A DNA stretch of 61,137 bases from Sideroxydans sp. Its GTDB lineage: Bacteria; Pseudomonadota; Gammaproteobacteria; Burkholderiales; Gallionellaceae. Made by a program: the position numbers and the translations under genes. Where the stretch lies: contig JAQUAD010000011.1 of the NCBI GenBank assembly GCA_028687425.1, positions 1 through 61,137 on the forward strand. Direction: 5' to 3'. Positions 25,147-41,835 of the stretch are shown here, in pieces. Each line of letters opens with the position of its first letter. Position 1 is the first letter of the stretch. The notes beneath the pieces are model-generated. The model worked only from the letters and a program-made list of their open reading frames with translations. It was not told the DNA's origin and ran no database searches.

Positions 25147-25169
25147 TGGTATAATCCGCACATCGTTCA
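25147..25169 (+). promoter_or_regulatory. extended -10 promoter for the kinase gene
   Basis: TGG followed by a perfect TATAAT (25150-25155) is an extended -10 element, which would compensate for the poor -35. The downstream 12 bases (25158-25169) are identical to those after the -10 at 1402. The predicted leader is only about 26 bases and has no Shine-Dalgarno sequence. Confidence 0.6.
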
Positions 25170-25187
25170 ACCACCCCATACCACGAT

Positions 25188-26126: not shown

Positions 26127-26129
26127 GTC

Positions 26130-27005
26130 ATGCAGATACCGGGCGCGGTCGCATCAGCCATCAGCGATGCGACGCAGCGCCCGTTTCAATTGCTACGCGC
26201 CACACCTGTCGGCGGCGGCGACATCAATCAGACTTGCCGTCTGGAAGGTTCGGACGGCACCCTATATTTCCTCAAACTGAACGCTGCGCAACACCATGCG
26301 ATGTTCGTCGCCGAGGCGGCAGGATTGCTTGCCATCGCTGCCAGCAACACGGTACGCGTACCGCACCCGATCGTGCATGGCACGGCAGAGGGGCTCAGTT
26401 TTCTGGTGCTGGAACACCTGCGACTGGGCGGGCGAGGCAACGCGCGGCAACTCGGCGAACATCTTGCTGCCTTGCATCGCAGTAGCGCGGAACGCTTCGG
26501 CTTCTCGCAGGAGAATTTCATCGGCACCACGCCGCAGCCCAATCGCTGGACGGATGACTGGCTGGATTTCTGGCGCGAGCAGCGCTTGGGATTCCAGCTA
26601 CGCCTGGCCGCGAAGAACGGATATGGCGGCGAACTGCAAAGGCAGGGCGAGAAGTTGCTGGACGTGCTGCCCGCATTCTTTGATGGCTACACCCCTCAGC
26701 CCTCTTTGCTGCACGGAGACCTGTGGGGCGGCAATCACGGCTTTCTTGGCGATGGCACGCCGGCCATCTTCGACCCGGCCGCCTATTACGGCGACCGCGA
26801 ATGCGATATCGCGATGACTGAACTATTCGGCGGCTACCCGCCGGAATTCCATGCGGCTTATCAAGCGGCATGGCCGCTGGCTGCCGGCTATGCGAAACGG
26901 CGCGACCTGTACAACCTCTATCACATCCTCAATCATGCCAATCTGTTCGGCGCTGGCTATGCCAGACAGGCCGCGAGCATGATTTCATCGCTCTTGCCTT
27001 CCTGA
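26130..27005 (+). CDS. fructosamine/ketosamine-3-kinase family protein
   Basis: A 291-residue kinase of the aminoglycoside phosphotransferase fold. Seen are the N-terminal region GGGDINQTCRLEGSDGTLYF, the catalytic loop LLHGDLWGGNHGFL and the metal-binding DPAAYYGDRECDIAMTELFGG. Family members phosphorylate sugar adducts on protein amines, starting repair of glycation, or free small substrates. Coupled to the PfkB gene at 3-base spacing, so both probably act in carbohydrate or glycation metabolism. Confidence 0.9.
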   Translation: MQIPGAVASAISDATQRPFQLLRATPVGGGDINQTCRLEGSDGTLYFLKLNAAQHHAMFVAEAAGLLAIAASNTVRVPHPIVHGTAEGLSFLVLEHLRLGGRGNARQLGEHLAALHRSSAERFGFSQENFIGTTPQPNRWTDDWLDFWREQRLGFQLRLAAKNGYGGELQRQGEKLLDVLPAFFDGYTPQPSLLHGDLWGGNHGFLGDGTPAIFDPAAYYGDRECDIAMTELFGGYPPEFHAAYQAAWPLAAGYAKRRDLYNLYHILNHANLFGAGYARQAASMISSLLPS

Positions 27006-27028
27006 GCCATATCCCCTGCATTTTTTTA

Positions 27029-27057
27029 TTGCCAATAACAACAATACCGTGCATAGT
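27029..27057 (+). promoter_or_regulatory. sigma70-type promoter of the cold-shock operon
   Basis: TTGCCA (27029-27034) and CATAGT (27052-27057) are separated by 17 bases. The implied 5' leader is about 130 bases, long as is usual for cold-shock genes, and contains a small GCCGC/GCGGC hairpin at 27101-27116 and an AGGAGA ribosome site at 27185. Confidence 0.55.
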
Positions 27058-27196
27058 GCGCCCCGCGATTCAAGTCTGTCGTTGTTGTTTGGTTCTGTAA
27101 GCCGCTTATCTGCGGCAATTCCCTTCATCTGTGTGCCGTCTTGAAGTTCGCTCCCAACTGGGCAATGCGTCCAAAATATTTATCAGGAGATTCATC

Positions 27197-27400
27197 ATGG
27201 CAACAGGTACAGTAAAGTGGTTCAACGACGCGAAGGGCTTCGGCTTCATCACCCCGACAAATGGTGGCGATGATCTGTTCGCACATTTTTCCGCAATCCA
27301 GAGCTCGGGCTTCAAGACATTGGCTGAAGGCCAATCCGTTGAGTTCGATATCGTCACTGGCCCCAAAGGTCAGCAGGCTTCCAACATCCGCGCTGTTTAA
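27197..27400 (+). CDS. cspA: CspA-family cold-shock protein
   Basis: A 67-residue single OB-fold RNA chaperone with RNP1 (KGFGFIT) and RNP2-like (DLFAHF) motifs, and the standard opening [11 protein letters not shown]. The frame is open upstream, but AGGAGA about 6 bases before this ATG and the family length fix the start. It follows a long untranslated leader and is five bases before the IF-1 gene. Confidence 0.96.
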
Positions 27401-27405
27401 ATTCC

Positions 27406-27666
27406 ATGGCAAAAGAAGAACTGCTCGAAATGAATGGTGTGGTGGATGAGGTCCTGCCGGATTCTCGCTATCGCGTCACACTGGAGAACGGTCACCAGCT
27501 CATCGCTTACAGTGCCGGCAAGATGAAGAAGAATCACATCCGCATCATCGCCGGTGACAAGGTGTCGCTGGAAATGTCGCCCTACGACCTGACCAAGGGA
27601 CGCATCACGTTCCGTCATATCGAAGGACGCACAGCTTTCGTGCCACAGCAGAAGCGCAAGTTCTGA
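27406..27666 (+). CDS. infA: translation initiation factor IF-1 (second, cold-shock-linked type)
   Basis: An 86-residue S1/OB-fold factor that binds the ribosomal A site during initiation. The pattern [24 protein letters not shown], in which the first half is the IF-1 opening, is clear, as is [17 protein letters not shown]. It is longer than the 72-residue form, with a basic tail (QQKRKF), as in the additional betaproteobacterial copy. There is no visible Shine-Dalgarno sequence in the five-base gap after cspA, so translation probably depends on coupling to the upstream gene. Confidence 0.94.
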
Positions 27667-27683
27667 TCCGCGCTTTGCTGAAG

Positions 27684-27720
27684 ATGCCGGTGCTGCCTTG
27701 CGCATCACCGGCATTTTTAT
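27684..27720 (+). terminator. rho-independent terminator of the cspA-infA operon
   Basis: ATGCCGGTG (27684-27692) pairs fully with CACCGGCAT (27706-27714), followed by TTTTTAT. It ends the operon directly before the convergent apaH stop, and the T-run reaches the start of the apaH frame's last codons. Confidence 0.85.
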
Positions 27721-28541
27721 TACCAGTGTCTGGCCACCGGACTGTTGCAAGCCACCTGGAACAGCTGCCGGTCTTCAAGACGTATGGCCGTCATCGGCCC
27801 GCCCCACAGGCAACCGGTATCCAGAGCGATGATGTTCGGCTCGACCTTCAGACCCAGCGCGGACCAATGCCCGAAGATGATGGTGGCATCGGCACTGAGG
27901 CGTTTCTTCACCTCGAACCACGGCAGGTACCCTGGCGGGATATTTTCCACCTCGCCCTTGAACTTGAATTCCATCTCGCCCTGCGGGGTGCAGATGCGTA
28001 GCCGCGTGAACGCATTGACGATGACGCGCAGTCGCTTGTAGCCCTGCAGATCGTCTTCCCAGCCGTGCGGCGCATTGCCGTACATCTTCTCCAGAAACAC
28101 CGCGTAGTCATCGCTGCGCAATGCGCTTTCGACTTCATGCGCCAATGCCAGCGCCTGCTTCACCGACCATTGCGGCAACAGCCCGGCATGCACCAGCACG
28201 TGCTCGCCTTCTGCATGCATCAGGCGCTGGTGACGCAGCCAATGCAAAAGCTCCTCGCGGTCAGGCGCATTCAGGATCCCGTCCAGCGTATCGCTGCTGT
28301 GCAACTTGCCTATCCCCTCGGCAACGGCCAGCAAGTGCAGATCATGGTTGCCCAACACCGTGATCGCACTGCTTCCCAGAGATTTCACCAGACGCAGCAC
28401 CTCCAGCGAGCCCGGGCCACGATTGACCAGATCGCCGACGAACCAGAGTTGATCTTGTGCCGGATCGAAGCGGATATGCTCCAGCAGTTGTTGGAGTTCG
28501 GTGTGGCAGCCTTGTATGTCGCCCACGGCGTAGATGGACAT
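27720..28541 (-). CDS. apaH: symmetrical bis(5'-nucleosyl)-tetraphosphatase
   Basis: A 273-residue metallophosphatase that splits Ap4A to two ADP. The metal ligands are in GDIQG near the start, GDLVNRGP and GNHD, in the usual order and spacing. The start at 28541 gives the standard opening MSIYAVGDIQG; the frame is open for 21 more codons upstream, without family similarity. Divergent from the MBOAT gene across 88 bases. Confidence 0.96.
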   Translation of the reverse strand: MSIYAVGDIQGCHTELQQLLEHIRFDPAQDQLWFVGDLVNRGPGSLEVLRLVKSLGSSAITVLGNHDLHLLAVAEGIGKLHSSDTLDGILNAPDREELLHWLRHQRLMHAEGEHVLVHAGLLPQWSVKQALALAHEVESALRSDDYAVFLEKMYGNAPHGWEDDLQGYKRLRVIVNAFTRLRICTPQGEMEFKFKGEVENIPPGYLPWFEVKKRLSADATIIFGHWSALGLKVEPNIIALDTGCLWGGPMTAIRLEDRQLFQVACNSPVARHW

Positions 28542-28629
28542 CAGAGTTCCCGTTGATTCACTGTAAAATAGGGTAACAGAAAATACCGTCCACGCTATGC
28601 ACACGCCTCGACTCGCCGCTTTTTAAACG

Positions 28630-30117
28630 ATGCTCTTCAACTCCTACAGTTTCATTTTCCTGTATTTGCCGGTGGTGTTTCTGGGCTTTTTTCAGCTTGG
28701 GCGTATTCACCACACCTATGCGGCTGCCTGGCTGGCTCTGGCATCGTTAGTTTTCTATGGCTATTGGAACCCGGCCTATGTCGGACTATTGCTCGGTTCC
28801 ATCATCTTCAATTACGCACTGGGCATGTGGATAGCAAAAGCCGGCATGAAACAGGAGACACGTCGCAAGACTCATCTTCTTGCATTCTCCATTACAGCAA
28901 ACCTCCTGCTGCTGGCTTACTACAAATATGCAAATTTCTTCCTCTCCAGCGTAAACAGCATTGCCGGGTCCAGCCTTTCGCTGGGCGAGATCATCCTGCC
29001 GCTTGGTATCTCGTTCTTCACATTCACCCAGATCGCTTTCCTGGTCGACACCTGGCAAGGCAAGGTGAAGGAATACAACTTCGTCCATTACGTGTTGTTC
29101 GTCACTTACTTCCCCCACCTTATCGCCGGCCCCGTGCTGCACCATAAGGACATGATGCCGCAGTTCGCACATGCTTCGACCTACCGCATCAACTGGGACA
29201 ACGTGGCGACCGGCCTGTTGCTGTTCACGCTCGGCCTGTGCAAGAAAGTGCTATGGGCCGATTCGCTGGCGCCTTATGCCACTGCCATCTTTGACGGTGC
29301 GCAACACGGGCTGTCCGCCGGCATCCTGCCGACCACTTATGAAGCATGGTCTGGCGCACTGGCCTACACCCTACAGATCTATTTCGATTTCTCCGGCTAT
29401 ACCGACATGGCACTGGGGATCGCGCTGATGTTCAACGTAAGGCTGCCGATCAATTTCAATTCACCGTACAAAGCAACCAGCATCATCGACTTCTGGCGGC
29501 GTTGGCACATCACCCTCTCCACCTTCCTGCGCGACTACCTGTACATTCCGCTCGGCGGGAACCGTCATGGCAAGCTACGCCGTTATGGCAACTTGTTGGT
29601 CACCATGCTACTGGGTGGGCTGTGGCATGGCGCCGGCTGGACCTTCGTGCTTTGGGGGGCGTTGCACGGCATCTATCTCACCATCAACCATCTGTGGCGT
29701 GAGCTGATTTCCGAGAAATATCTGCGCTGGGTACCGGACTGGCTGGGCACACTGGCAGGGGGCACACTGACCTTCATTGCCGTGGTCGCGGCCTGGGTGG
29801 TGTTCCGCGCGGACAATATGCCGCAGGCCATGGTCATGCTGAATGCCATGTTCGGCATTGCCGCGCGTCCGATCTCGCTCGATGCCGTATTGCATGGCAA
29901 CCTGCTGCTGCTCACCAACATGTCGGGACGGGAGCTGTTGCGTTTACTGATTCCCGGCCTGCTTTGGGTCTGGCTGCTGCCGAATTCGACGCGCATCCGC
30001 TTCATCAAGGGCAGCAACATGCTAATGTTGGCGCAGCTCGTTATTGTGCTTTACATGTTGTACGTGGCGATCGATCAGTTCGGCAGCTACAGTCCGTTCC
30101 TCTACTTCCAGTTCTGA
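28630..30117 (+). CDS. MBOAT-family O-acyltransferase (AlgI-like)
   Basis: A 495-residue membrane acyltransferase with about 11 helices. The MBOAT signature IDFWRRWHITLSTFLRDYLY with PLGGNR and the catalytic-His region LWHGAGWTFVLWGALHG are present. AlgI-type proteins pass acetyl groups across the inner membrane to decorate polysaccharides. The following gene encodes an SGNH-type periplasmic partner, so this pair probably acetylates the glycan made by the rest of the locus. It marks the left edge of the surface-glycan region. Confidence 0.92.
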   Translation: MLFNSYSFIFLYLPVVFLGFFQLGRIHHTYAAAWLALASLVFYGYWNPAYVGLLLGSIIFNYALGMWIAKAGMKQETRRKTHLLAFSITANLLLLAYYKYANFFLSSVNSIAGSSLSLGEIILPLGISFFTFTQIAFLVDTWQGKVKEYNFVHYVLFVTYFPHLIAGPVLHHKDMMPQFAHASTYRINWDNVATGLLLFTLGLCKKVLWADSLAPYATAIFDGAQHGLSAGILPTTYEAWSGALAYTLQIYFDFSGYTDMALGIALMFNVRLPINFNSPYKATSIIDFWRRWHITLSTFLRDYLYIPLGGNRHGKLRRYGNLLVTMLLGGLWHGAGWTFVLWGALHGIYLTINHLWRELISEKYLRWVPDWLGTLAGGTLTFIAVVAAWVVFRADNMPQAMVMLNAMFGIAARPISLDAVLHGNLLLLTNMSGRELLRLLIPGLLWVWLLPNSTRIRFIKGSNMLMLAQLVIVLYMLYVAIDQFGSYSPFLYFQF

Positions 30118-30118
30118 C

Positions 30119-31135
30119 ATGAAACAGGCCAAAGTATTCTCTATTGTGGTGATGCTGGCGGTGCTCTGCTACGGCGGCGTCGGTTTCTATTTCCTGCCAA
30201 GAGCAACGTTTCAGGGGGAGCTTACGCGCATGTCGCTGCTGCCTGAAACCTTGTTCGGCTGGACCAAGGCACAACCCTCGATCGACAAACAATGGATGAA
30301 GCAAGCCGCAATGCAGGATGCGGATGTGCTGGTCATCGGTGACAGTTTTTCAGACGGCCGTATCTGGCAAACCAGGCTCACCCGCCAAGGCTACAAGGTC
30401 AGAACCGAAACCTGGGACAGCATGCGCGGAATCTGTGCGGACTTCATGCCTTGGCTACGCGACCAGGGCTTTCACGGCCGCTTCATTGTGCTCGAATCCA
30501 TTGAGCGCAATCTGGTGAATGATCTCAAGAAATCGGTAGCCTGCCAGAAGATGCAATATCACCCCAATGCCCGTACCGATGCGCCGCGCTATCCGCCCGC
30601 GGTTTCATTCGATGTAAATGGAGGCAACTACGCCGGCAAGTTATCCACCGGCTTTCGCACCCTTCTGCATGTCCTGGAATACGAACGCCTGAGCCAAGCT
30701 CAGGATTTCAGCACTTGGGTATTACCCAATGACGTTACCATGGCCAGGATAGAAAACGGTTGCGCGCTATTCAGCCATGCCAGTTGCAACGACACCCTGT
30801 TCCTGTCGTATGACTTGCATGGTGAGGTAGACGACAGCGCACTGGATAACATTGCGACGCTTAACGCCCGCATGGAAGGCGTTACACCTGTCTGGATGTT
30901 CGTACCGAACAAGAGCACCGTCTATCGCTACCCGGACAAGCAATTCTGGAACAAGGCAGAAGTGCGTTATGGCGCCCCCAATCTGATGCGCATGATGCAG
31001 CGTGCGGTGGACGACAGGATTATTGATCTGTACCCCGCTAATAACACTCATGTGTCTACGACTGGCTATCTGCTACTGGGCGATGAGATTCTTAAGGTGC
31101 TACAAAAGAACACAGCCACGAGTAAGTCGCACTAG
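30119..31135 (+). CDS. SGNH-type O-acetylation partner (AlgJ/AlgX-like)
   Basis: A 338-residue protein with one N-terminal membrane anchor (VFSIVVMLAVLCYGGVGFYF) and a periplasmic hydrolase-like domain. VIGDSFSDGR holds the SGNH nucleophile Ser at about residue 78, and PANNTHVSTTGYLLLG near the C-terminus holds the likely catalytic His. It begins one base after the MBOAT stop, so the two are coupled. It probably transfers the acetyl group to the glycan in the periplasm. The conserved N and G block-II/III residues were not checked. Confidence 0.8.
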   Translation: MKQAKVFSIVVMLAVLCYGGVGFYFLPRATFQGELTRMSLLPETLFGWTKAQPSIDKQWMKQAAMQDADVLVIGDSFSDGRIWQTRLTRQGYKVRTETWDSMRGICADFMPWLRDQGFHGRFIVLESIERNLVNDLKKSVACQKMQYHPNARTDAPRYPPAVSFDVNGGNYAGKLSTGFRTLLHVLEYERLSQAQDFSTWVLPNDVTMARIENGCALFSHASCNDTLFLSYDLHGEVDDSALDNIATLNARMEGVTPVWMFVPNKSTVYRYPDKQFWNKAEVRYGAPNLMRMMQRAVDDRIIDLYPANNTHVSTTGYLLLGDEILKVLQKNTATSKSH

Positions 31136-31196
31136 CATTCCCGAAAAGTGCTTCAGGCCTTGGGGCTTCCTTTTTGTATCCACCGCACTCACTTAC

Positions 31197-32393
31197 CTAG
31201 CGATGAGCTGCATTGTCATGCAAGACGATTCGCCAATCGGCATTACCTCCCTGCGGAAACACCCTGATATAGGACGCTCCATTGTCATCAACAAATGTTT
31301 TATTCGCTGAGTACGGAATCCAGTTGTGGTTATAGCCGTCGTCAGTTACCACAAAAAATTTCACAATTGCACCAACAAAAATAAAGAAATATAGATATCT
31401 GAATGCTCTTCCCTGGCTATTGGTTTTGTATAGGTTAAGCATAAAAAGGAATATCAGGACGCAAGGGGCGTAGCCATAGCGCTCCCCTCCACTCATTTTC
31501 AGCGAGACAAAGGTGAAAACCAAGACCAAATATACTGCCATTAATACTGGGAAATTTAGTTCTCGCACAACGAACAAATCTTTTCGAAGTATATAGATCA
31601 GGTACCCAAGCAAGATGTATCTCAAACCCAGCGGCACCTCGGTAAATATGCCAGCGAATGTTCTGAGCAGGCCTATTGGATAGTTGGCTAGATTCTCCAA
31701 GGAGAATCTAGCAACTTGATCTCCCATGCTTAAATAAATCAATGACAACAGCTGAATTAGCAGTCCTGCCAGTAGTATGAACAATATAGACAGGTGCTTA
31801 CGATTCCATCCTGCCTTCCAACACTTGTAAATATAAAAAGGGGCCAATACGACTGTTGTTACTCCGGTCATTGAACAGAATAGAAGCAGCACGCTTACGG
31901 CAATAAATTTCGCTCCATCAATCTGATCTATATCTGACAAAAACAGCAAACATCCAAAGAGACAAAAGTAAAATTGTAAGTTAACCGTGTTTAGCCAAAT
32001 CTCCTGATAGGAAAGGAATAGAGCGAAAAAAACTAAAGAAATACGCTTGAAGTCGTCATCCCAAAATTTGGACTTTAGATACAACGGAGCGCTTATACAC
32101 AGAAGCATAAATATTAGCGATGCGAACGTTGTGAAATACGCTATTCCTTCCAAGCCGAATAGCTTAAATCCAACACTTGTGATGATGTTGTTCGCAAGCG
32201 AAAAATAGCCGAGATGGGGCGAAAATATGCTGGCAATCAACCCATGATCCAGTACTGCCTGGATATGGACAGATCCTTCTTCCGCCCAAATTCTGGGTTG
32301 CATAAAATACAGCGGCTCACGAAGAAAAATTCCTATCAATGCTATTAATAGGACGACTATATTTTTCTGTTTCTCATTTAGAGCCAACATCAT
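31197..32393 (-). CDS. GT-C-like polytopic membrane protein, candidate glycosyltransferase
   Basis: A 398-residue protein with about 10-11 helices and strikingly low GC against its neighbours. After the first helix, the first outer loop carries MQPRIWAEEGSVHIQAVL; an acidic pair in this position is the usual catalytic site of GT-C enzymes that use polyprenyl-phosphate sugars. A soluble C-terminal tail follows the last helix (DDGYNHNWIPYSANKTF). No named family was recognised. It lies beside the DPPR-synthase, phosphatase and DprE-like genes on the same strand as two of them, so it is a candidate arabinosyltransferase (inference). Confidence 0.7.
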   Translation of the reverse strand: MMLALNEKQKNIVVLLIALIGIFLREPLYFMQPRIWAEEGSVHIQAVLDHGLIASIFSPHLGYFSLANNIITSVGFKLFGLEGIAYFTTFASLIFMLLCISAPLYLKSKFWDDDFKRISLVFFALFLSYQEIWLNTVNLQFYFCLFGCLLFLSDIDQIDGAKFIAVSVLLLFCSMTGVTTVVLAPFYIYKCWKAGWNRKHLSILFILLAGLLIQLLSLIYLSMGDQVARFSLENLANYPIGLLRTFAGIFTEVPLGLRYILLGYLIYILRKDLFVVRELNFPVLMAVYLVLVFTFVSLKMSGGERYGYAPCVLIFLFMLNLYKTNSQGRAFRYLYFFIFVGAIVKFFVVTDDGYNHNWIPYSANKTFVDDNGASYIRVFPQGGNADWRIVLHDNAAHR

Positions 32394-32670
32394 GACCTTT
32401 TCAATTTCTTGGGACCATTTCTAGAAAATACCGGCAGATTTCTACCAAGTGTCTTCACTTGGGAATGCGTGGCTGCGACGATACTGACGATCCGTTTTCA
32501 TTCACGGCCTTCAATGAAGCGCCCAAGCAAGCCCCATACCCTCATCGTCAGTTGACCTGATTGAGCAGCCATACTGAAACCTAGATTCCCTGACAACTTT
32601 GTGATTGCGGCACACCATTTCAGTTACTCCACCATCTGCGTGTCAAATGTAAAGTCAGGTGCTAGATTGA
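32394..32670. other. 277-base intergenic region without a gene
   Basis: It lies between two minus-strand genes. No open frame of note, no tRNA and no clear inverted repeats were seen. It may hold the promoter of the GT-C-like gene; the drop in GC begins here. Confidence 0.5.
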
Positions 32671-33087
32671 TTAATTAGCATATATCCACACTAAAGTTGC
32701 AACCGATATACCCACTACAACCCCCGCGAGGATTTCAGTCCGAGAATGTCCCATCCGCTCCCGCAGCAAGTGATGGCCTTGAATATCAGCAGACAATCTA
32801 TTGATTGCCGCTGCATGCTTGCCCACCTGCTGACGCAGGCTACTGGCATCGAGCAGCACAATAAATGCCGATGTGAGCGCAATGCCGAAGGCAGGGTGAG
32901 CAATCCCTTCTTTCAGCGCGATAAGCATAGTCATACTGCTAACAATCGCACTGTGATTACTTGGCAATCCGCCATAGCCAATAAGGCCAAACGCTAATTG
33001 CCTAGCCTTGATGCTGTTGATGGCAAACTTGGTAACTCCAGCTATGAACCAAGCCAGAAAGGGAGTAAGCACATAAGAGTAGTCCAT
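32671..33087 (-). CDS. divergent PAP2-type phosphatase (DUF212/YuiD-like)
   Basis: A 138-residue membrane protein with about four helices. It carries YGGLPSNHSAIVSSMTML and GHSRTEILAGVVVG, the two half-sites of the PAP2 phosphatase pattern as seen in DUF212 (PSNHSA and GHSRTE). It starts 2 bases after the DPPR-synthase stop with AAGGG before the ATG. In mycobacteria a PAP2-type enzyme removes the 5-phosphate from polyprenyl-phospho-phosphoribose, and the position here suggests the same step. That role is inferred from context. Confidence 0.8.
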   Translation of the reverse strand: MDYSYVLTPFLAWFIAGVTKFAINSIKARQLAFGLIGYGGLPSNHSAIVSSMTMLIALKEGIAHPAFGIALTSAFIVLLDASSLRQQVGKHAAAINRLSADIQGHHLLRERMGHSRTEILAGVVVGISVATLVWIYAN

Positions 33088-33089
33088 AT

Positions 33090-33974
33090 TTATCCCTTTG
33101 CCGGCCACATGGCCCAACTGCAAACAGCTATCCACAACAACACCGTTAGCAGTAGTTGCCAATCAGCCAGCAAGGCATCCGTCGGAGATTCACCGCCATC
33201 AAGGGCTTCAACCACAAACCAGTAGCGAAACAGGCCGAACAAAACCAATGGAACCGTGATGACCAACTCGGGTTTAGCCGACATCACAAACATACTGTAG
33301 AAAAGCAGTGCCCCTGTTGCTGACATCTCGGCATAGCGATCCACCAGTGCGACAGAATATTTCTCCAACACTTTGCGGCCCTCTGTGCCGCTCTGGTTCA
33401 ATTCTTGTCGTCGTTTGACAGCCGCCAGATAAAGCGCAAGACACAAGGTGGTGATAAACATCCAAGATGAGACCGGCACAGCCAGTGCCATGGCTCCCGC
33501 ATAGACACGCAGCACAAAGCCTATAGCAATTGAAAAAATATCTACAACAGGCTGATGCTTGAGCACAAATGTGTAGGCCAAGTTGAGCGCCAGATAAGCT
33601 GCTATAACCATCACCACATTAGGAGCGACAAGCCACCCCCACACCAAAACAGCATACAGAATGGCAAGCAGTATCTGAGCAGCCGGGATTGAGACAATCC
33701 CGGCTGCCAGCGGACGAGTCTTGGATTTTTTGGGGTGACGGCGGTCTCGCTCGACATCGTGCATGTCGTTGACGATATAGGTAGCTGACGAAGCCACGCA
33801 AAAGAGCAGCATAGCCAACATGGCATGGCTGACAGACTCTGCATCCAGGAATCCTCCAGCGAATACCAGCGGAGCAAGAACAAAGACGTTCTTAATCCAT
33901 TGCCTTGGCCGCATGAGCCTGACCAAGCCCAGCGCAGTCGCTAGAGACAAACGGGACATTTCTGTATCATGCAT
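33090..33974 (-). CDS. UbiA-family DPPR synthase (polyprenyl-phosphate phosphoribosyltransferase)
   Basis: A 294-residue membrane prenyltransferase-fold enzyme. The first Asp-rich motif is NDMHDVERDRRHPKKSKTRP, which has the HPxKxxRP tail typical of decaprenyl-phosphate 5-phosphoribosyltransferases rather than of quinone enzymes. The opening LMRPRQWIKNVFVLAPLVFA is also typical of that subgroup. It should move phosphoribose from PRPP to a polyprenyl phosphate, the first committed step to polyprenyl-phospho-arabinose. Divergent from the GtrA gene with only 26 bases between start codons. Confidence 0.88.
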   Translation of the reverse strand: MHDTEMSRLSLATALGLVRLMRPRQWIKNVFVLAPLVFAGGFLDAESVSHAMLAMLLFCVASSATYIVNDMHDVERDRRHPKKSKTRPLAAGIVSIPAAQILLAILYAVLVWGWLVAPNVVMVIAAYLALNLAYTFVLKHQPVVDIFSIAIGFVLRVYAGAMALAVPVSSWMFITTLCLALYLAAVKRRQELNQSGTEGRKVLEKYSVALVDRYAEMSATGALLFYSMFVMSAKPELVITVPLVLFGLFRYWFVVEALDGGESPTDALLADWQLLLTVLLWIAVCSWAMWPAKG

Positions 33975-34000
33975 TTTTTGAACCTAGGTGGCGTTAATTA

Positions 34001-34414
34001 ATGTTTGCTACGACCAAGCTGGCGATTACTTATGGCATTCTCGCACTAATCGCAACGGCGGCAAACATTGGCACTCAGGATCTGGCTATCCGCATCTACA
34101 GCGGCTCTTTCTACATTCTGGTCTCGATCATTACAGGCACTGGGGTGGGACTTGTCGTCAAGTACATTTTAGACAAGCGCTACATTTTTCGCTTTCGAGC
34201 ACGTAACATCGCCCACGACACACAGACGTTTACCCTTTATACCGTCATGGGCCTGGCAACTACTGCCATCTTCTGGGGGTTCGAGTTTGGCTTCCATCAC
34301 GTCTTCGAAACTAAGGAGATGCGATACGTGGGCGGCATTATCGGCCTTTGCATCGGCTATCTGACCAAATACCACCTCGACAAGCGTTACGTTTTCCGCT
34401 CGGAGGCCGGATGA
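34001..34414 (+). CDS. GtrA-family membrane protein
   Basis: A 137-residue protein with four helices and the GtrA hallmarks: the repeated YILDKRYIFRF and YHLDKRYVFRS at the ends of the two halves, and TGTGVGLVVKY. GtrA proteins are thought to help move polyprenyl-phosphate sugars across the membrane. The stop overlaps the DprE1-like start (ATGA). In Mycobacterium tuberculosis a GtrA-like gene (Rv3789) also precedes dprE1. Confidence 0.9.
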   Translation: MFATTKLAITYGILALIATAANIGTQDLAIRIYSGSFYILVSIITGTGVGLVVKYILDKRYIFRFRARNIAHDTQTFTLYTVMGLATTAIFWGFEFGFHHVFETKEMRYVGGIIGLCIGYLTKYHLDKRYVFRSEAG

Positions 34415-35712
34415 CACCGGTTTCATCTTGGGGACGTCTCAGCGCCCATCCTCACAATGTTATTAGCCTGAACAACCCATCTAATGTCAGGAATATCCTT
34501 TGCAATAGCCGGCATCCTGGCTTAGCTCATGGCATGGGCCGCAGTTATGGAGATGTCTGCCTGAATCCCGAAGGTACCCTCTGGCTGACGACTGGACTAG
34601 ACCATTTCACTGCTTTTGATGAGTGCACGGGGCGCCTGGTATGTGAATCTGGCGTGCTGATAAGAGACATTCAAAGGTTGATGATTCCGCGCGGCTGGAT
34701 TCTTCCTGTGACACCTGGGACCCAACTAATAACCGTCGGCGGCGCCATTGCTAATGACGTACACGGGAAAAATCACCATGTACTGGGCTCATTCGGCGAT
34801 CATGTCAAGAAGCTCACCCTTATCCGTACGGATGGTGAAGTCATTCATTGCGGGCCGAATCAACATCCCGATTGGTTCGCCGCAACCGTCGGCGGGTTAG
34901 GGCTGACCGGGGTAATCACGCAAGCTGAGATTCAACTACGGCGTGTTCCAGGACCATGGCTGAATACCGAGACCGTTCCCTACAGCGATCTGGATGAATT
35001 TTTCCGACTTGCGGATGCTTCCGAAGCAGGGTGGGAACACACGGTGTCCTGGATTGACTGCCTCTCGGGCGGCAGAGGGCGTGGCTTGTTCATGCGGGGC
35101 AACCCTGCGGACATCGGGCAGCGCCCTGAACCCCGTGATCGCAAACTGACTATGCCCATGGCCCCCCCCGTTTCCATCATCAACCAGCTGTCTCTACGCC
35201 CCTTCAACATGGCTTACTACCACCTCAAGAAACTGCGAGCTGGACAGAAAATCACCCATTACGAGCCATTTTTCTATCCATTGGACAACCTGCTCGAATG
35301 GAACCGGATGTACGGTCCGAAGGGTTTCTTCCAATACCAGTGCGTACTGCCGCGCGAGATAGGCAGAGATGCCGTACAAGCCATGCTTAGAGAAATCTCT
35401 GGAGCTGGGGATGGCTCTTTCCTTGCAGTTCTGAAGACATTCGGCAACTGCCCGCCAGTTGGCATGCTAAGTTTCCCGCAACCCGGCGTTACGCTTGCCT
35501 TGGACTTCACCAATCATGGCGAGCGCACATTCAAACTTTTCGCCAAGCTTGATGCTATCGTGCGGGAGGCGAAAGGGCGTATATACCCTGCAAAGGATGC
35601 CCGGATGCCACGGGAGCTTTTTGAAACTGGCTATCCGCGCCTCCCTGAATTTACCAAATATCGAGATCCTGGTATCAGTTCAGCGTTCTCGCGCCGTGTG
35701 ATGGGGAGCTGA
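34411..35712 (+). CDS. dprE1: DprE1-like FAD-dependent decaprenylphosphoryl-ribose oxidase
   Basis: A 433-residue FAD-linked oxidase of the VAO fold. The FAD-binding part includes AHGMGRSYGDVCLN (about 39-52) and TPGTQLITVGGAIANDVHGK. A C-terminal AKD motif with Lys395 corresponds to the catalytic Lys of mycobacterial DprE1. It should oxidise the 2-OH of polyprenyl-phospho-ribose, the first half of epimerisation to arabinose. The position of the mycobacterial inhibitor-target Cys (in ICVDF) is here Ala363 (GVTLALDF). Start: ATG overlapping the GtrA stop. Next gene is the reductase partner, with no gap. Confidence 0.9.
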   Translation: MTPVSSWGRLSAHPHNVISLNNPSNVRNILCNSRHPGLAHGMGRSYGDVCLNPEGTLWLTTGLDHFTAFDECTGRLVCESGVLIRDIQRLMIPRGWILPVTPGTQLITVGGAIANDVHGKNHHVLGSFGDHVKKLTLIRTDGEVIHCGPNQHPDWFAATVGGLGLTGVITQAEIQLRRVPGPWLNTETVPYSDLDEFFRLADASEAGWEHTVSWIDCLSGGRGRGLFMRGNPADIGQRPEPRDRKLTMPMAPPVSIINQLSLRPFNMAYYHLKKLRAGQKITHYEPFFYPLDNLLEWNRMYGPKGFFQYQCVLPREIGRDAVQAMLREISGAGDGSFLAVLKTFGNCPPVGMLSFPQPGVTLALDFTNHGERTFKLFAKLDAIVREAKGRIYPAKDARMPRELFETGYPRLPEFTKYRDPGISSAFSRRVMGS

Positions 35713-36465
35713 ATGAGACCTATGAGAAAGATTGTTATCGTTGGCGCAACCTCAGCCATAGCCGAACATTGTGCGAGGCTTTGGTTAAAGAACGAGCCTG
35801 CAGATTTGATCTTGCTGGGCCGTGATGCTCAACGCATCGAAAGAGTTGCAGCTGATCTAAAAGTGCGAAGCCCAGCCTCTACGATTCATATCTTGCAGGC
35901 TGACTTTATGGATCCGACTGCAATCCAGACAACTGTTGAAATTATTGCAAACCAAGGTCCGGTTGATATTGCACTCATAGCACACGGCACGTTGCCTGCA
36001 CAGGCAGAATGCCAAGTCGATTTGGGTCTATGTCGCGACACACTTGAAATCAACGGCATTTCTCCTGTGCTTTTCGCAGAGTGTTTTGCCAAGCATATGG
36101 AAGCCTCCAACCGAGGCACGATAGCCATTATCGGATCGGTCGCGGGCGATCGTGGAAGAAAATCAAACTATGTGTATGGTGCGGCAAAAGGACTTGTTGA
36201 CCGTTATGCGCAAGGGCTCCAACACAGATTAGCCGGCAGCGCGGTCAAAGTTTCGTTGATCAAGCCCGGGCCAACGCAAACACCCATGACAGCCCATCTC
36301 CGCTCCCTCAACGTAAAGCTTGCACCGGTCGACAACGTTGCAGAACTGATTGTTAGGGGGATCGAAGCTGGCCAAGATGTAATCTATGCACCCAAAAAGT
36401 GGAGGCTAATTATGTTAGTAATTAAGCATATGCCATCCAGCATATTCAACAAATTGAATATTTAG
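35713..36465 (+). CDS. dprE2: DprE2-like short-chain dehydrogenase (decaprenylphosphoryl-keto-ribose reductase)
   Basis: A 250-residue SDR. The NAD(P) motif is VGATSAIAEHCARLW (the GxxSxIA type of DprE2), and the catalytic Ser and YxxxK are in IIGSVAGDRG and YGAAKGLVD. It should reduce the 2-keto intermediate to polyprenyl-phospho-arabinose. The C-terminus ends with hydrophobic IMLVIKHMPSSIF, which suits membrane association. GGGGAG sits 4 bases before the ATG, which directly follows the dprE1 stop. GC is lower than in region 1. Confidence 0.9.
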   Translation: MRPMRKIVIVGATSAIAEHCARLWLKNEPADLILLGRDAQRIERVAADLKVRSPASTIHILQADFMDPTAIQTTVEIIANQGPVDIALIAHGTLPAQAECQVDLGLCRDTLEINGISPVLFAECFAKHMEASNRGTIAIIGSVAGDRGRKSNYVYGAAKGLVDRYAQGLQHRLAGSAVKVSLIKPGPTQTPMTAHLRSLNVKLAPVDNVAELIVRGIEAGQDVIYAPKKWRLIMLVIKHMPSSIFNKLNI

Positions 36466-36506
36466 TCATTCAAAGACTAGGTGGCAGGTTTCTGTCGGAA
36501 TCTTCT

Positions 36507-36547
36507 CTGGCATTACCCACCAACGGCATCACGCATGCCAGACTTTT
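36507..36547 (+). terminator. hairpin with T-run after the dprE1-dprE2 genes
   Basis: Two nested options exist: CTGGCAT/ATGCCAG across a long loop, or GGCAT-CACGC-ATGCC (36525-36539) as a compact hairpin. Both are followed by TTTTT at 36544-36548. It lies between the convergent dprE2 and glycosyltransferase genes. Confidence 0.6.
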
Positions 36548-36575
36548 TCAAACAAGCTGTACGCTGACCAGCGCA

Positions 36576-37490
36576 TTAATCAGCCTGCCCCCACTTGCAC
36601 TTCCCGGGCTCCGGATCCCAAGCCTCAATCCCATCCAGCGGGTAGTTGTAGCGTAAGGCGTACCGCACACGACGCAATTTCCCAAGCCAAGTTGGCCGGA
36701 CGAAATTATGCGGATTATCTGGCGTGCTACCCCCGTCAGATCTACGCAATGATGGGAGGTAGTAGCGATAAAACTCCAGTTGAGTGATGCCCCATTTCAT
36801 CACGAACATGCGACCACCCTGATTGTGAGTGATGCGTCCTGTACTCGCCATGCCGAAATGATAGAAACGACTGGCGCCCACAATGCGAAAGTTACGGCAT
36901 CCCGCCACCCAGAATTTCATGAGCAGATCATCGTCACTGCTCATGCCGGGCGAGAATTCCAAACTGTATCCACCGACCATAGCCCACCACTTCTTGTGGA
37001 ATAAGGTAGGTTGCGAGGCTGCACCTTCCCGATCACCGCGTGGATCATCGAGATACCCCTTCAGGAACGCTGTCTCATCAAAGGTTTCCGGTGTTCGGCC
37101 AAAATCCTGTTTGACAATAATTTCATTACCACCGTCCTCAGGCTGGACTAGCGTGCCAAAGAACAAGGCCAGATCGGTATCCACTGATTCGATTGCCTCC
37201 ATGAACGCCTTATCCCACCCGGGTGCGGCGACCATATCGTCGTTCATGAACAGTACCCAATCATGCGTCGCCTGCGCCACCGCATGATTCACAGCAAGAC
37301 AGACGCCAACATTCTTGTCACTTTGCGTGTACCTGACTCCTTGGGCACGCACCCATTCCAGAGAACCATCCGAGCCGTCATTCAGATGCACGATGATCTC
37401 GTGCGCATGGGTCGAATGCCTTTGCAGACTCTCTATGCAGAGTTTCAGATGCGACAGATTGTTCCAAGTCGGAATAACGATGCTGAACAT
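36576..37490 (-). CDS. glycosyltransferase family 2
   Basis: A 304-residue GT-A enzyme. It opens with FSIVIPTWNNLSHLKLCIESL, has the DxD-type metal site in MNDDMVAAPGW (about 82-92) and a later acceptor region with FSPGMSSDDDLLMKFW. There are no membrane segments. It should add one sugar from a nucleotide donor; sugar and acceptor unknown. It is isolated: convergent with dprE2, and a 573-base gap separates it from the next gene on its own strand. Confidence 0.88.
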   Translation of the reverse strand: MFSIVIPTWNNLSHLKLCIESLQRHSTHAHEIIVHLNDGSDGSLEWVRAQGVRYTQSDKNVGVCLAVNHAVAQATHDWVLFMNDDMVAAPGWDKAFMEAIESVDTDLALFFGTLVQPEDGGNEIIVKQDFGRTPETFDETAFLKGYLDDPRGDREGAASQPTLFHKKWWAMVGGYSLEFSPGMSSDDDLLMKFWVAGCRNFRIVGASRFYHFGMASTGRITHNQGGRMFVMKWGITQLEFYRYYLPSLRRSDGGSTPDNPHNFVRPTWLGKLRRVRYALRYNYPLDGIEAWDPEPGKCKWGQAD

Positions 37491-38063
37491 ATTGCTTCCT
37501 TAATTTTGATAACGCCATCGGAGCAACCCAAACTATGGATTGACACTTTAAAGGCATCCTGCCCCATCTATTTACATGGAGTCGCCACAACGTGTATAGA
37601 AATACAGTGCAAATTTCGTACTCCCTGTTCCCACTCCGCAACCCACGTAATGGGAACAGCGCTAATCAGATCACCATTGCATTGCCATTCGGCAAACCTT
37701 CCAGGATCAACCCGCAAGACAGCCCGATATGCCCAGAACAACTTACCTCTGCAAGTACACAACTCCCAAATGGGCGTATCTCAAAGGTTAATGTGGTAAC
37801 AGGGCTCCAAAATACTGGATGTGAAATGGATGTGCGGGCTGCACTCCCGGCCCATCCCCACCGGAATTGGCCGCTCGCATTGCTCATGTGCTCTTCACAA
37901 CGCACACTTGAAGATCAGGAAGTAACGCTGCTTTAACGGCGCATACCCCCAGTTTCAACATGTACAGCTTCGCTTTATGCATCTGTTTTTCATACACAGA
38001 ATATCGGCGCTGTTCGTAGCCGAATCCCGCATTAGCGCATTCGCAACTTCTACAATAGACCAC
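37491..38063. other. 573-base gap with no supportable gene
   Basis: Short frames on both strands cross this stretch, but none has a ribosome site, a recognisable family pattern or a stable composition. It could be a degraded gene, since frames on the plus strand (37592-37936) are open at unusual length. No insertion-sequence ends or tRNA were seen. Confidence 0.5.
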
Positions 38064-39977
38064 TTACGCAGCAGACACGGAAGGAGCCTCTTCCCACATA
38101 TGATCAAAAATTTCGCCTTGCGGACGATACCCTTCAACGACTTTTTCCAGAATTTTCCTGATTGAATCACACTCAAAGCGATGGCAGGCTGCATCAATTT
38201 CGCTTAAGGCTGAATGTAATTCGGGCCAAGCCAGCTCCCGCTCTTCCGCCCGCATGATGAGCGGGTGCGCCGTGCCAGTAACGTTCTCCCCGATCAGCAA
38301 TTCCTCATAGAGTTTCTCGCCGGGGCGCAGGCCGCTGAAAACGATCTCAATGTCACCTTCAGGATGGTCTGTATCACGCAACTCCAAACCACTCAGGCGA
38401 ACCATTCGCCGCGCAAGGTCTATGATCTTGACCGGCGCTCCCATATCCAGCACGAAGACATCGCCCCCGCTGCCCATCGCTCCAGCCTGCAGCACCAGCG
38501 TAGCCGCTTCCGGAATAGTCATGAAATAGCGCGTGATATCGGGATGCGTGACAGTCACCGGACCGCCATTCTGGATCTGTTTCCTGAACAACGGCACGAC
38601 CGAGCCAGATGAACCCAGCACGTTGCCGAAACGCACCATGCAATAACGGGTCGGGCCACCTTCACGGGCGAAAGCTTGCAGAATCAGCTCTGCGAAACGC
38701 TTGGTAGCGCCCATCACATTGGTCGGGCGCACGGCTTTGTCGGTCGAGACCAGCACGAAGGTTTCCACCCCCGCATCGCGCGCCGCTTCAGCCGTCCGCC
38801 AGGTGCCAAAGACATTGTTGCGAACGCCCTCGATGAAATTCCGCTCCACCAGTGGCACGTGCTTGTATGCAGCCGCATGATAGATCGTCTGCACACCAAA
38901 GGCGCGGATCACTTGGGCAATGCGCTGCTGATGCACCACTGAGCCGAGTATGGGAATCACTTCCGTCTTCGCGCCATTCTGCGCCGGTACAGCGGATAAC
39001 TCCTGCTCGATCTGGTACAGCGCATACTCGGAAAGCTCGAACAAAACCAAACGCGCCGGCTGCTGCAAAATGATCTGACGGCACAACTCCGACCCGATCG
39101 ACCCACCCGCACCGGTCACCATCACCACCTTGTCGCGTATGCATTTCGACAGCAATTCCGGAATAGGCTGCATCGAATCACGTCCGAGCAGATCGTCGAT
39201 CTCAACCTCACGCACTTCTTCTACCTTCGAAGCACCGGTCACCAGATCATGCATGCTGGGAACCGTCTTGACCGAAACACGGTAACCTTCGATCTGGCTG
39301 ATAATTTCAAGACGGCGCTTGCGGGAAGCCGAGGGAATTGAGAGCAGTACGGAAGTGAAGCCCTCCGTATCCAGAACCGCAGCGAATTCATCCGGCGCAT
39401 GCACTGCAATCCCGGCAATCTCGCTACGATGCAAATCAGCATTGTCATCAAAGAACGCCACCACCTGGAAATGGCGACCGGCCTGCAAGGCAGAGGCCAG
39501 CTTAACACCAGTCTCTCCCGCGCCGTATATCGCCACACGCTCTTTTTCCAATCTACTACCGCGTTGCTCGAACCTTCGCAGGTATGCCCGAGCGATCAAA
39601 CGGCTACCGCCGATGTATAGCAACGCGATGCCCCAATAGATGACATATGAAGAGCGCGGGATTGCCTTAGTTGCCAACAGCGTATCGGCAGCAAGAAGCA
39701 ATAACACCGCCAGTGTCACACCTTGCAGAACGGTGATGACCATCCTGTCTTCCATATAACGAATGACGGCGCGGTACAAGCCGATTTTTACAAACACAGG
39801 TATTGCCACTAAAGGCGCGAGCAATATCACCCAATGCAGCCCCGAAATATTGGGCAACCAACTGCCAGTTCGCAGGGCAACGGCCGACCAGAGCGCCAGC
39901 GGCAGCAATACCAGATCAGAAGCAACCATGATCAGTCGCTTGGATCTTCTGGAAAGACGTGTCAGGAAATATCTCAC
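38064..39977 (-). CDS. CapD/PglF/WbpM-type nucleotide-sugar 4,6-dehydratase
   Basis: A 637-residue membrane-bound SDR. Residues 1-130 hold four helices; a CoA-binding-like Rossmann domain begins at IYGAGETGVKL (about 150); the catalytic domain has VTGAGGSIGSELCRQI (about 290) and VSTDKAVRPTNVMGATKR, in which Met replaces the usual SDR Tyr, as in WbpM and PglF. It should turn UDP-GlcNAc into the 4-keto-6-deoxy sugar. Length and layout match the full-size family. It heads a run of minus-strand genes with a sugar transferase and an aminotransferase. Confidence 0.93.
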   Translation of the reverse strand: MRYFLTRLSRRSKRLIMVASDLVLLPLALWSAVALRTGSWLPNISGLHWVILLAPLVAIPVFVKIGLYRAVIRYMEDRMVITVLQGVTLAVLLLLAADTLLATKAIPRSSYVIYWGIALLYIGGSRLIARAYLRRFEQRGSRLEKERVAIYGAGETGVKLASALQAGRHFQVVAFFDDNADLHRSEIAGIAVHAPDEFAAVLDTEGFTSVLLSIPSASRKRRLEIISQIEGYRVSVKTVPSMHDLVTGASKVEEVREVEIDDLLGRDSMQPIPELLSKCIRDKVVMVTGAGGSIGSELCRQIILQQPARLVLFELSEYALYQIEQELSAVPAQNGAKTEVIPILGSVVHQQRIAQVIRAFGVQTIYHAAAYKHVPLVERNFIEGVRNNVFGTWRTAEAARDAGVETFVLVSTDKAVRPTNVMGATKRFAELILQAFAREGGPTRYCMVRFGNVLGSSGSVVPLFRKQIQNGGPVTVTHPDITRYFMTIPEAATLVLQAGAMGSGGDVFVLDMGAPVKIIDLARRMVRLSGLELRDTDHPEGDIEIVFSGLRPGEKLYEELLIGENVTGTAHPLIMRAEERELAWPELHSALSEIDAACHRFECDSIRKILEKVVEGYRPQGEIFDHMWEEAPSVSAA

Positions 39978-40016
39978 TGATTGCTCATGATTCTTAAAAA
40001 GCGATGGCTGATGATA

Positions 40017-40619
40017 TTACAAATTGTTGCGCAACCAGACCTTGGCGATAGTCTGCCATATGATCCGGATATCCAGCCACAATGAGCGCTGGTCGACATA
40101 CTTTTGGTAATACCCAAGTTTGATCGGTAATATCTTCTCGATATATTCCTTCTCCGGATCAGCGGCCCCCTCCAGCATCTCGTTCTCATTGCTGAACTCG
40201 ATAGAAGCCGTATCCGTGATTCCCGGCCGGACCGACAGCACCCGATCACGCACGTCAGCAGGGTAATGGACCACATATTTCGGCACTTCAGGGCGCGGCC
40301 CCACCAGACTCATATCGCCCACTAACACATCAATCAACTGCGGCAGCTCATCCAGTTTGGATTTGCGCAAAAAACGTCCGCTACGGGTGATGCGCGCATC
40401 CTGGCCGACCGTCACCTGTGGCCCGCGCGCCTCGGCATTGACCACCATGCTACGAAACTTATGGATCCTGAACACACGCCCCTTGCGCCCCACACGCTCC
40501 TGGCGAAAGTACACCGGCCCTGCAGAGTCGAATTTGATCCAGAACGACACGAATATAAACAGGGGCGCGCACATCACAAGACCGCACGCAGATAGCAGAA
40601 TGTCAAAGAGCCGTTTCAT
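40017..40619 (-). CDS. PglC/WcaJ-type phosphoglycosyl transferase (initiating sugar transferase)
   Basis: A 200-residue monotopic enzyme that puts the first sugar phosphate on undecaprenyl phosphate. It shows the re-entrant hydrophobic N-terminus (KRLFDILLSACGLVM), the basic RQERVGRKGRVFRIHKFRSM, the catalytic Asp-Glu in KSKLDELPQLIDVL, and GDMSLVGPRPE. It is of the short (PglC) size. The frame extends upstream, but the ATG has GGAGG 5 bases before it. It is 16 bases after the aminotransferase gene, so they are cotranscribed. Confidence 0.93.
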   Translation of the reverse strand: MKRLFDILLSACGLVMCAPLFIFVSFWIKFDSAGPVYFRQERVGRKGRVFRIHKFRSMVVNAEARGPQVTVGQDARITRSGRFLRKSKLDELPQLIDVLVGDMSLVGPRPEVPKYVVHYPADVRDRVLSVRPGITDTASIEFSNENEMLEGAADPEKEYIEKILPIKLGYYQKYVDQRSLWLDIRIIWQTIAKVWLRNNL

Positions 40620-40635
40620 GGAAGCCTCCGCCACC

Positions 40636-41790
40636 TCAAGCAGCAAGGATCTCCTTGATCGCGGCAATGACCTTTGACTGATCTTCCTCACTCATGCGCG
40701 TATACAAAGGCAGACTGACCGCAGCCTGGTAGGCCTTCAGCGCATGTGGAAAATCTTCCGGCTGCAGCGCGTAGGTATCACGCCAATAGGGTTGCAGGTG
40801 AAGGGGAATGAAATGCACGCTGCACCCGATGCCACGTTGCGCCATCGCCTCGATGAATGCGTCTCGCCCGATAGGTGACGCATCGCTCAAGCGGATCACA
40901 TACAGATGCCAGGCATGCATATCGCCCGGCAACGCAGCAGGCGGTAACTGCACAGGCATATCAGCCAACTCGCGATGGTAGCGTTCAGCCATTTCTTGGC
41001 GCTTCTGTTGGAAGCGCCGCGCTTTCATAAGCTGGTGGATACCCATTGAAGCAGCGATATCCGTCATGTTGTACTTGAAGCCGGGCGCCACCACCTCATA
41101 CTGCCATGCCGGCTTTGTCGATACATAGCGATCGAAGGCATCCCGACTGATGCCGTGCAAGCGCATCACCTTGCACCGAGCCGCGATAGAAGGGTCTCGT
41201 GTAACGACCATCCCTCCCTCGCCGGTGGTGATGGTCTTGGTCGCGTAGAAACTGAATACCGTCGCATCGCTATCGAGCGTACCTACAAGCTTCCCGCCAA
41301 CAATTGTGGGCAAAGAGTGGGCAGCATCCTCTACCACTTTCAGTCCGTGCTTGCGTGCAATTGCAATAATGGCGTCCATCTCGCAAGCGAGGCCGGCAAA
41401 ATGTACTGGAATAATTGCCTTGGTTCTCTCGGTGATAGCAGCTTCGATCTTGCTCACATTGATATTCAAGGTATTCGGATCGATATCCACGAACACCGGA
41501 TGCGCACCTAGATAGCGGATCACTTCGGCAGTCGCGGTAAAGGTGTATGGCGTTGTGATCACCTCATCCCCGGCGCCCACGTCAAGCGCCTCTAGCGCAA
41601 GGTGCAATCCGGCCGTAGCAGAATTGACCGAAATGGCTTCACCTTGCACGCCAACGAAATCAACAAACTCTTTCTCGAAACGCTTGGTCTTTGGCCCAGT
41701 TGTCACCCAGCCAGAACGGAGTGAATCTACAACTTCGGCGATTTCTTCTTCCCCGATATCGGGCAAGGCAAATGGGAGGAAATATTTCAT
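40636..41790 (-). CDS. DegT/DnrJ/EryC1/StrS sugar aminotransferase (PglE-like)
   Basis: A 384-residue PLP enzyme. The PLP Lys is in [16 protein letters not shown] (about 182), with the preceding [10 protein letters not shown] loop holding the cofactor Asp. It should aminate C4 of the keto sugar made by the neighbouring dehydratase. This trio resembles the Campylobacter PglF-PglE-PglC route, but no PglD-type N-acetyltransferase gene was seen nearby, so the initiating sugar may keep a free amine or be acetylated elsewhere. Confidence 0.92.
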
Positions 41791-41835
41791 GTTCAGGAAG
41801 GGGCTATGTCGCTCAAATTTACTTTTTTTATTATC

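Follow-up and report, generated by a model that had tools for sequence, protein, structure and literature searches.

Sequence analysis of a putative lipid-linked D-arabinofuranose cassette with a DUF212 front end in a polysaccharide locus of Sideroxydans sp.

The synthesis of lipid-linked D-arabinofuranose (D-Araf) is already known in Gram-negative bacteria. According to the available text of two articles, D-Araf biosynthesis genes and pilin arabinosylation have been published for Pseudomonas paraeruginosa (PMC12369383), and three-component pentofuranose systems, including ones that deliver ribose or xylose, were described by Kelly et al., with DprE1/DprE2 homologs reported for Araf-containing glycans (PMC11127046). 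In addition, the accessible part of PMC8707391 describes a polysaccharide of Devosia submarina that contains D-arabinose. Here, we compare these systems with a five-gene cassette on contig JAQUAD010000011.1 of Sideroxydans sp.; the window analysed is the entire contig of 61,137 bases, from a genome of 2.79 Mb. Based on homology, residues, gene order, recurrence, and module exchange, the cassette is predicted, with a probability of about 0.8, to make polyprenyl-phosphate-D-Araf for a periplasmic GT-C glycosyltransferase, i.e., to form a three-component pentofuranose system with a D-arabinose epimerisation module.

In the proposed pathway, the UbiA-family protein would transfer ribose-5-phosphate from phosphoribosyl pyrophosphate (PRPP) to a (probably undecaprenyl) phosphate, and the DUF212 protein would strip off the 5'-phosphate, leaving polyprenyl-phosphate-ribose. 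The DprE1-like protein would then oxidise C2' and the DprE2-like protein would reduce it with inversion, giving polyprenyl-phosphate-D-Araf. GtrA would flip the lipid-sugar to the periplasm, where the multi-transmembrane (multi-TM) protein encoded at 31197-32393 would pass D-Araf to an acceptor, for which an O antigen or exopolysaccharide is likelier than a pilin.

Compared with the mycobacterial decaprenylphosphoryl arabinose pathway (Rv3806c, Rv3807c, DprE1, DprE2, and Rv3789), the same four enzymatic steps are present by homology, and the mycobacterial enzymes are the closest solved relatives for three of the proteins. However, the host is proteobacterial, the carrier is probably undecaprenyl, DUF212 replaces Rv3807c, the window proteins reach only 112-237 bits to their solved mycobacterial counterparts, and the acceptor would not be arabinogalactan. 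The mycobacterial gene order, which we take to be Rv3789-DprE1-DprE2-AftA, resembles GtrA-DprE1-DprE2-(multi-TM open reading frame, ORF).

In the case of P. paraeruginosa PA7/Pa5196 (PSPA7_6245-6251), the accessible text of PMC12369383 and PMC11127046 describes a pathway that is likewise Gram-negative, with D-Araf genes on a genomic island and an ortholog of decaprenylphosphoryl-5-phosphoribose (DPPR) synthase; PMC11127046 attaches the number 6246 once to the UbiA protein and once to the phosphatase. Its acceptor is pilin, with TfpW encoded beside pilA, whereas in the window the candidate transferase adjoins the cassette and no multi-TM candidate lies near the pilin gene of the genome. With the Citrobacter youngae O1/O2 systems (GT136; PMC11127046, available text), the window has in common a PRPP-derived polyprenyl-phosphate-pentofuranose donor, a flippase, and a GT-C enzyme, all by prediction. 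In contrast to the HAD-UbiA fusion and MATE transporter of C. youngae, the window has an unfused UbiA with DUF212, GtrA as the likely flippase, and a transferase candidate of an unclassified family. The variant features of the window cassette would thus be its divergent layout, its DUF212 front end, and this transferase candidate; should the PA7 phosphatase be a DUF212 protein as well, the DUF212 variant would already belong to a published pathway.

Assignment and recurrence of the cassette enzymes

All the genes named in the initial annotation (UbiA, phosphatase, GtrA, DprE1, and DprE2) are present at the coordinates of Table 1, with matches in Pfam, NCBIfam, and solved structures. They form two divergent arms separated by a gap of 26 bases, UbiA and DUF212 on the minus strand and GtrA, DprE1-like, and DprE2-like on the plus strand. 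The ATG of the DUF212 gene at 33087 lies two bases past the UbiA stop, as had been noted for the phosphatase gene, and the end of gtrA overlaps the start of dprE1 by 4 bases, in agreement with its earlier placement directly before dprE1.

The UbiA protein matches Pfam UbiA (E=9.7e-21) and exceeds the NCBIfam decaprenyl-phosphate phosphoribosyltransferase model NF008978 (217.5 bits vs. a cut-off of 207); it falls narrowly under the sister model NF008977 (230.1 vs. 234 bits) and under NF008976 (171 vs. 474 bits). Its closest solved relative is the DPPR synthase 8j8j (E=2.6e-43), with the next other UbiA protein at 5.1e-11. It carries NDMHDVERD (NDxxDxxxD motif) and HPKKSKTRP. The latter is the motif annotated initially as HPxKxxRP, but it reads HPxKxxxRP, one residue longer than HPxKxxRP of the solved DPPR synthase. 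Across the 80 loci described below, the longer form occurs in 33 of the 34 unfused UbiA proteins and the shorter one in 35 of the 38 encoded co-oriented with dprE1, the remaining four lying outside the search pattern.

The DprE1-like protein matches PF01565 (FAD-binding domain) and aligns with solved DprE1 at E=3.6e-69 (237 bits), the next family, a flavo-oxidase, following at 8.5e-9 (38 bits). HGKNHH and AKD are retained, and the lysine highlighted earlier belongs to an A-K-D that is invariant in seven aligned rows. At the cysteine of WNICVDF in solved DprE1, the window protein has Ala (VTLALDF); a pattern search of this position in 81 rows returned Ala in 61, Ser in 3, and no fit in 17. The DprE2-like protein aligns with solved DprE2 at E=2.7e-31 (112 bits), and the next short-chain dehydrogenase/reductase (SDR) at 8.8e-16 (62 bits). 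In view of the wide margins of DPPR synthase, DprE1, and DprE2 over the next families, generic UbiA, flavo-oxidase, and SDR enzymes were rejected, and the pathway assignment to DPPR-synthase-like, DprE1-like, and DprE2-like proteins, already made in the initial annotation, is well supported by these comparisons. GtrA matches PF04138 (E=1.6e-8) and NCBIfam gtrA_1 (189 bits vs. a cut-off of 50), has a match in 18 of the 22 DUF212-type loci, and is the probable flippase of the lipid-linked pentose.

DprE1 relatives (E 1e-20) were found in 22 of 120 genomes searched, including the genome of the window; among 33 same-genus genomes (G001-G033), G033 is the sole one with a relative. Scanning genome contigs with a DprE1 alignment of seven rows gave at least 547 relatives among 586 candidate stretches, the best 80 of which were kept as loci. 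Together with the systems described in the available text of PMC12369383 and PMC11127046, these stretches indicate that the rarity of D-arabinose in Gram-negative bacteria had been overstated initially. The 80 loci are titled as beta-, gamma-, and alphaproteobacteria, with one Desulfovibrio and one Acidobacteria, and DprE2 matches in 78 of them; the other two end just past dprE1. Loci from several Proteobacteria classes repeat the divergent order [DUF212-UbiA][GtrA-DprE1-DprE2], and the gene arrangement exceeds chance, given its recurrence in many genomes. The identity to the DprE1 of the window is 84% in G033, 79% in Microbulbifer, and 75% in Pseudochelatococcus, and such high values in the latter two suggest horizontal transfer. 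DprE1 relatives occur in 64 plasmid records (E 1e-20), all below 60% identity. A phage-borne cassette was rejected, as DprE1 had no match in 50,697 phage records (E 1e-10). Genomes from the family and order of the window hold a more distant DprE1 group (L027-L038; 39-43% identity), with UbiA and DprE2 laid out differently.

G033, with a genome 94% complete, is the nearest carrier of the cassette. Its DNA matches the window at 25144-32437 and 32587-37484 (80-84%) in the same gene order, and also at 17577-19147 (76%). It is highly improbable that the window holds a decayed or silent island without current function: GC is lower at 30-36 kb (0.48-0.53 vs. 0.54-0.68 at 1-28 kb) and the presence of the cassette in the genus is patchy, but its reading frames are intact and the block has kept its identity and gene order with G033.

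Exchange of the front-end modules

For the phosphatase, annotated initially as PAP2-like, the position stands and the family is a different one: the protein matches PF02681 (DUF212, 'Divergent PAP2'; E=2.6e-31) and, at E 0.001, neither ordinary PAP2 nor any other Pfam family, in contrast to the PAP2 phosphatase Rv3807c of mycobacteria. PSNH and GH...EI are invariant across 23 aligned DUF212 rows, and presumably they resemble PAP2 motifs. PDB searches with DUF212 returned no credible match, and in the titles and abstract openings of the papers listed for it DUF212 is nowhere assigned to a lipid-linked D-arabinose pathway. DUF212 is present in 2 of 61 genomes, that of the window and G033, both carriers of the window-type cassette, whereas G036 and G093, whose DprE1 matches are more distant, lack it; DUF212 as a housekeeping neighbour was rejected on these grounds.

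A UbiA gene was located in 72 of the 80 loci: 34 have it unfused and pointing away from dprE1, and 38 have it co-oriented. Among the former, 22 have DUF212, none has the HAD motif, and in 12 neither phosphatase was found (L046, L074, L075, L079, L080, L083, L087, L098, L104, L105, L114, and L119, many of them alphaproteobacterial by title); DUF212 was searched for with the window sequence alone, so that divergent copies may escape. The co-oriented loci have the HAD motif in 36 cases (32 by script and four by eye, namely L067, with a partial domain in the predicted ORF, L099, L109, and L120; L094 and L095 are cut by contig ends) and DUF212 in none. The association of DUF212 with the UbiA layout has a Fisher p=3e-10, uncorrected for relatedness. 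Pfam found HAD plus UbiA in 5/5 fused proteins submitted; the single unfused protein submitted matched UbiA only.

DprE1 proteins 73-76% identical to that of the window are paired with either front end. On the best tree of a quick DprE1 analysis of 91 rows, the front-end state changes 10 times, a number that is not firm: well-supported branches force only 1-2 changes, 40 of the 88 inner branches are open, L023 and L128 were labelled fused by hand, and the tree is without mycobacterial sequences.

In Citrobacter, according to the available text of PMC11127046, the 5'-phosphate is taken off by the HAD domain of the HAD-UbiA fusion. Because DUF212 plus an unfused UbiA replaces HAD-UbiA, whose HAD domain has that role, DUF212 is probably the 5'-phosphatase of polyprenyl-phosphate-ribose-5-phosphate. 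This assignment is the strongest new testable claim of our analysis.

Candidate arabinosyltransferase and acceptor

The protein encoded at 31197-32393, within the range of the initial annotation but passed over there, is the best candidate for the arabinosyltransferase, as yet unproven. Its family has, in 9/9 aligned members, W-[AG]-[ED] with an acidic residue behind the first TM segment, which we take to be a GT-C mark. The family is rare, occurring in 1/300, 4/369, and 5/398 genomes at the order, class, and phylum levels (own genome counted; the query was a single sequence at the first level, two rows at the second, and five at the third), and a scan of viral contigs gave six pattern matches with no relative among them. 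Its homolog in G726 adjoins HAD-UbiA, dprE1, and dprE2, i.e., a differently built D-Araf cassette. Furthermore, hhalign of this family against a dprE2-adjacent family (10/17 members adjoin dprE2) gave a probability of 80 (E=1.4e-5, 206 columns), whereas the two controls, a UbiA alignment and a membrane family of the ABC-transporter type (the latter with three near-identical rows), reached 0.4 and 0.1, respectively. At L135 (9484-12332), tandem homologs lie near an ORF that is GT2-like by eye, with no dprE1 in the 20 kb fetched; judging from this locus, the family may also use other lipid-linked sugars.

To be counted as adjoining dprE2, a multi-TM ORF on either strand had to reach 330 aa and six TM segments by a simple hydropathy count and to start -400 to +800 bases from the dprE2 end. 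Such ORFs occur in 33 of the 72 loci with at least 1500 bases past dprE2 and, by the same criteria, at 346/3400 control points taken from other parts of the loci. We assembled 38 multi-TM candidates, consisting of 32 of the 35 such ORFs across all loci, four from the opposite flank of the cassette, another ORF of L060, and the window protein. They vary widely in sequence, and in many of them the first TM segment is followed by an acidic residue (judged by eye, without a control). RYxxP or RYxxxP is a weak GT-C mark here, present in 18/38 candidates vs. 15/67 other multi-TM ORFs.

In the window itself, the place just past dprE2 is taken by a reverse-strand GT2 gene. This departure from many other loci would fit a scheme in which the lipid-linked pentose is made and the arabinosyltransferase is another membrane protein, e.g., that of 55998-58184 or 58397-60226, the 31197-32393 protein having some other job. 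Both are big membrane proteins, with 8 and 9 predicted TM segments, respectively, and no Pfam match. We regard this scheme as unlikely: the two genes lie ~20 kb from the cassette, 58397-60226 adjoins a GT2-family gene (60262-61053) that may make its own donor, and 31197-32393 lies within the block common with G033 and has a homolog adjoining another D-Araf cassette.

Several results weigh against the overall prediction of a D-Araf donor and GT-C transferase. The DprE1-like and DprE2-like proteins score below the NCBIfam equivalog cut-offs NF053785 (338 vs. 500 bits) and NF053786 (170 vs. 250 bits), and because of this we use the names DprE1-like and DprE2-like; of these curated cut-offs, that of NF008978 was exceeded by UbiA and those of the two equivalogs were not reached. 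Neither DUF212 nor a HAD phosphatase was found near the 12 unfused-UbiA loci listed above, in a search by the window DUF212 only; their 5'-phosphatase may lie elsewhere or have diverged beyond the reach of this search. Neither Pfam nor the PDB supports reading 31197-32393 as a GT-C enzyme, and the protein had no credible match in Pfam, NCBIfam, or the PDB (protein and profile searches). In five of the seven other genomes with this family, no dprE1 occurs within the 9-20 kb fetched (of these stretches, one starts and another stops at a contig end). Pfam on the 38 candidates gave PMT_2 and Sel1 twice each and Wzy_C_2, Wzy_C, PglL_A, and Acyl_transf_3 once each, which is not purely GT-C. In addition, a search of the whole G033 genome with 37500-56500 (E 1e-5) gave only one match, of 467 bases at 68%, on another contig.

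The equivalog scores bear on whether the product could be another lipid-linked pentose, the DprE1/DprE2-like pair being no true 2'-epimerase, as systems for ribose or xylose exist (PMC11127046, available text). We consider such a product improbable: solved DprE1 and DprE2 lead the next families by ~200 and ~50 bits, the DprE2 match accompanies DprE1 in nearly all kept loci, and AKD and HGKNHH are retained.

The block common with G033 ends at 37484, at the GT2 gene. Past this border the glycan genes differ, G033 having a GT-like ORF and a Wzy_C protein distinct from those of the window; the pattern would fit an exchange of the glycan-specific region at this point. Because G033 has the cassette without matching DNA at 37500-56500, the further glycan genes of the window are not tied to it, and it is unproven that the donor supplies the glycan made by the remaining genes of the locus, as was proposed initially: G033 shares 25144-37484 and only the 467 bases beyond. 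Either the transferase takes different glycans or its acceptor is something conserved. A type IV pilin, as in P. paraeruginosa, would be such an acceptor in place of a polysaccharide; the genome holds one pilin match (PF00114, contig C106), and pilin is the documented Gram-negative use in the available text of PMC12369383. We nevertheless judge it distinctly unlikely, since the 20 kb around the pilin gene contain no ORF with at least six predicted TM segments, unlike the linked pilA-tfpW of P. paraeruginosa, and the cassette is located in a polysaccharide locus.

Taken jointly, the claims that DUF212 is an as yet unassigned class of polyprenyl-phosphoryl-ribose-5-phosphate phosphatase, that a single mobile D-arabinose donor cassette serving many different GT-C transferases can have either UbiA+DUF212 or HAD-UbiA as its interchangeable front end, and that 31197-32393 represents one such unclassified arabinosyltransferase family have, in our estimate, somewhat better than even odds.

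Surrounding locus and implications

The 5' chromosomal part of the window includes fructosamine-kinase and metallophosphatase genes, and the polysaccharide locus then runs to the contig end (Table 1). The protein encoded downstream of the MBOAT gene is presumably AlgJ/AlgX-like, a name we take from its position. Nonulosonic-acid-type genes (NeuB, cytidylyltransferase, and aminotransferase) occupy 43188-49433; among them, the ORF at 45963-47567 encodes 534 aa ending in a GNAT domain, a protein that we assume to resemble a PseG-PseH fusion, and is followed by a PhyH dioxygenase. Near the contig end, 55998-61053 encodes the two big multi-TM proteins (728 and 609 aa) and then the GT2-family gene, possibly a second lipid-phosphate-sugar plus GT-C system.

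Table 1. Features of the window with coordinates, strand, and basis of assignment
Feature	Coordinates	Strand	Basis
MBOAT O-acyltransferase (AlgI/DltB-like), present in G033 too	28630..30117	+	PF03062 E=3.1e-36
Protein downstream of MBOAT gene, without Pfam match, present in G033 too	30119..31135	+	
Multi-TM protein, candidate GT-C arabinosyltransferase	31197..32393	-	W-A-E-E after first TM segment; linkage; hhalign
DUF212 (divergent PAP2) protein, probable 5'-phosphatase of polyprenyl-phosphate-ribose-5-phosphate	32671..33087	-	PF02681 and module exchange
UbiA-family polyprenyl-phosphate phosphoribosyltransferase (DPPR-synthase-like)	33090..33974	-	motif NDMHDVERDRRHPKKSKTRPLA; Pfam UbiA, NF008978, 8j8j
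GtrA/DPMS-TM family protein, probable lipid-linked pentose flippase (predicted role)	34001..34414	+	PF04138, gtrA_1
DprE1-like FAD oxidase, predicted 2'-oxidation of polyprenyl-phosphate-ribose	34411..35712	+	PF01565, solved DprE1, AKD lysine
DprE2-like SDR reductase, predicted second half of 2'-epimerisation	35713..36465	+	solved DprE2
GT2-family glycosyltransferase, final gene of block common with G033	36576..37490	-	PF00535
Further glycan genes: Polysacc_synt_2 proteins, sugar transferase, aminotransferases, Wzy_C, NeuB, cytidylyltransferase, PhyH			

If the proposed pathway is true, DUF212, a family of unknown function, would gain a testable substrate. For many Proteobacteria, each equipped with a transferase of its own, D-arabinofuranose could be predicted from the genome, and the loci would provide non-mycobacterial DprE1, DprE2, and DPPR-synthase homologs for biochemistry together with a set of candidate arabinosyltransferases.

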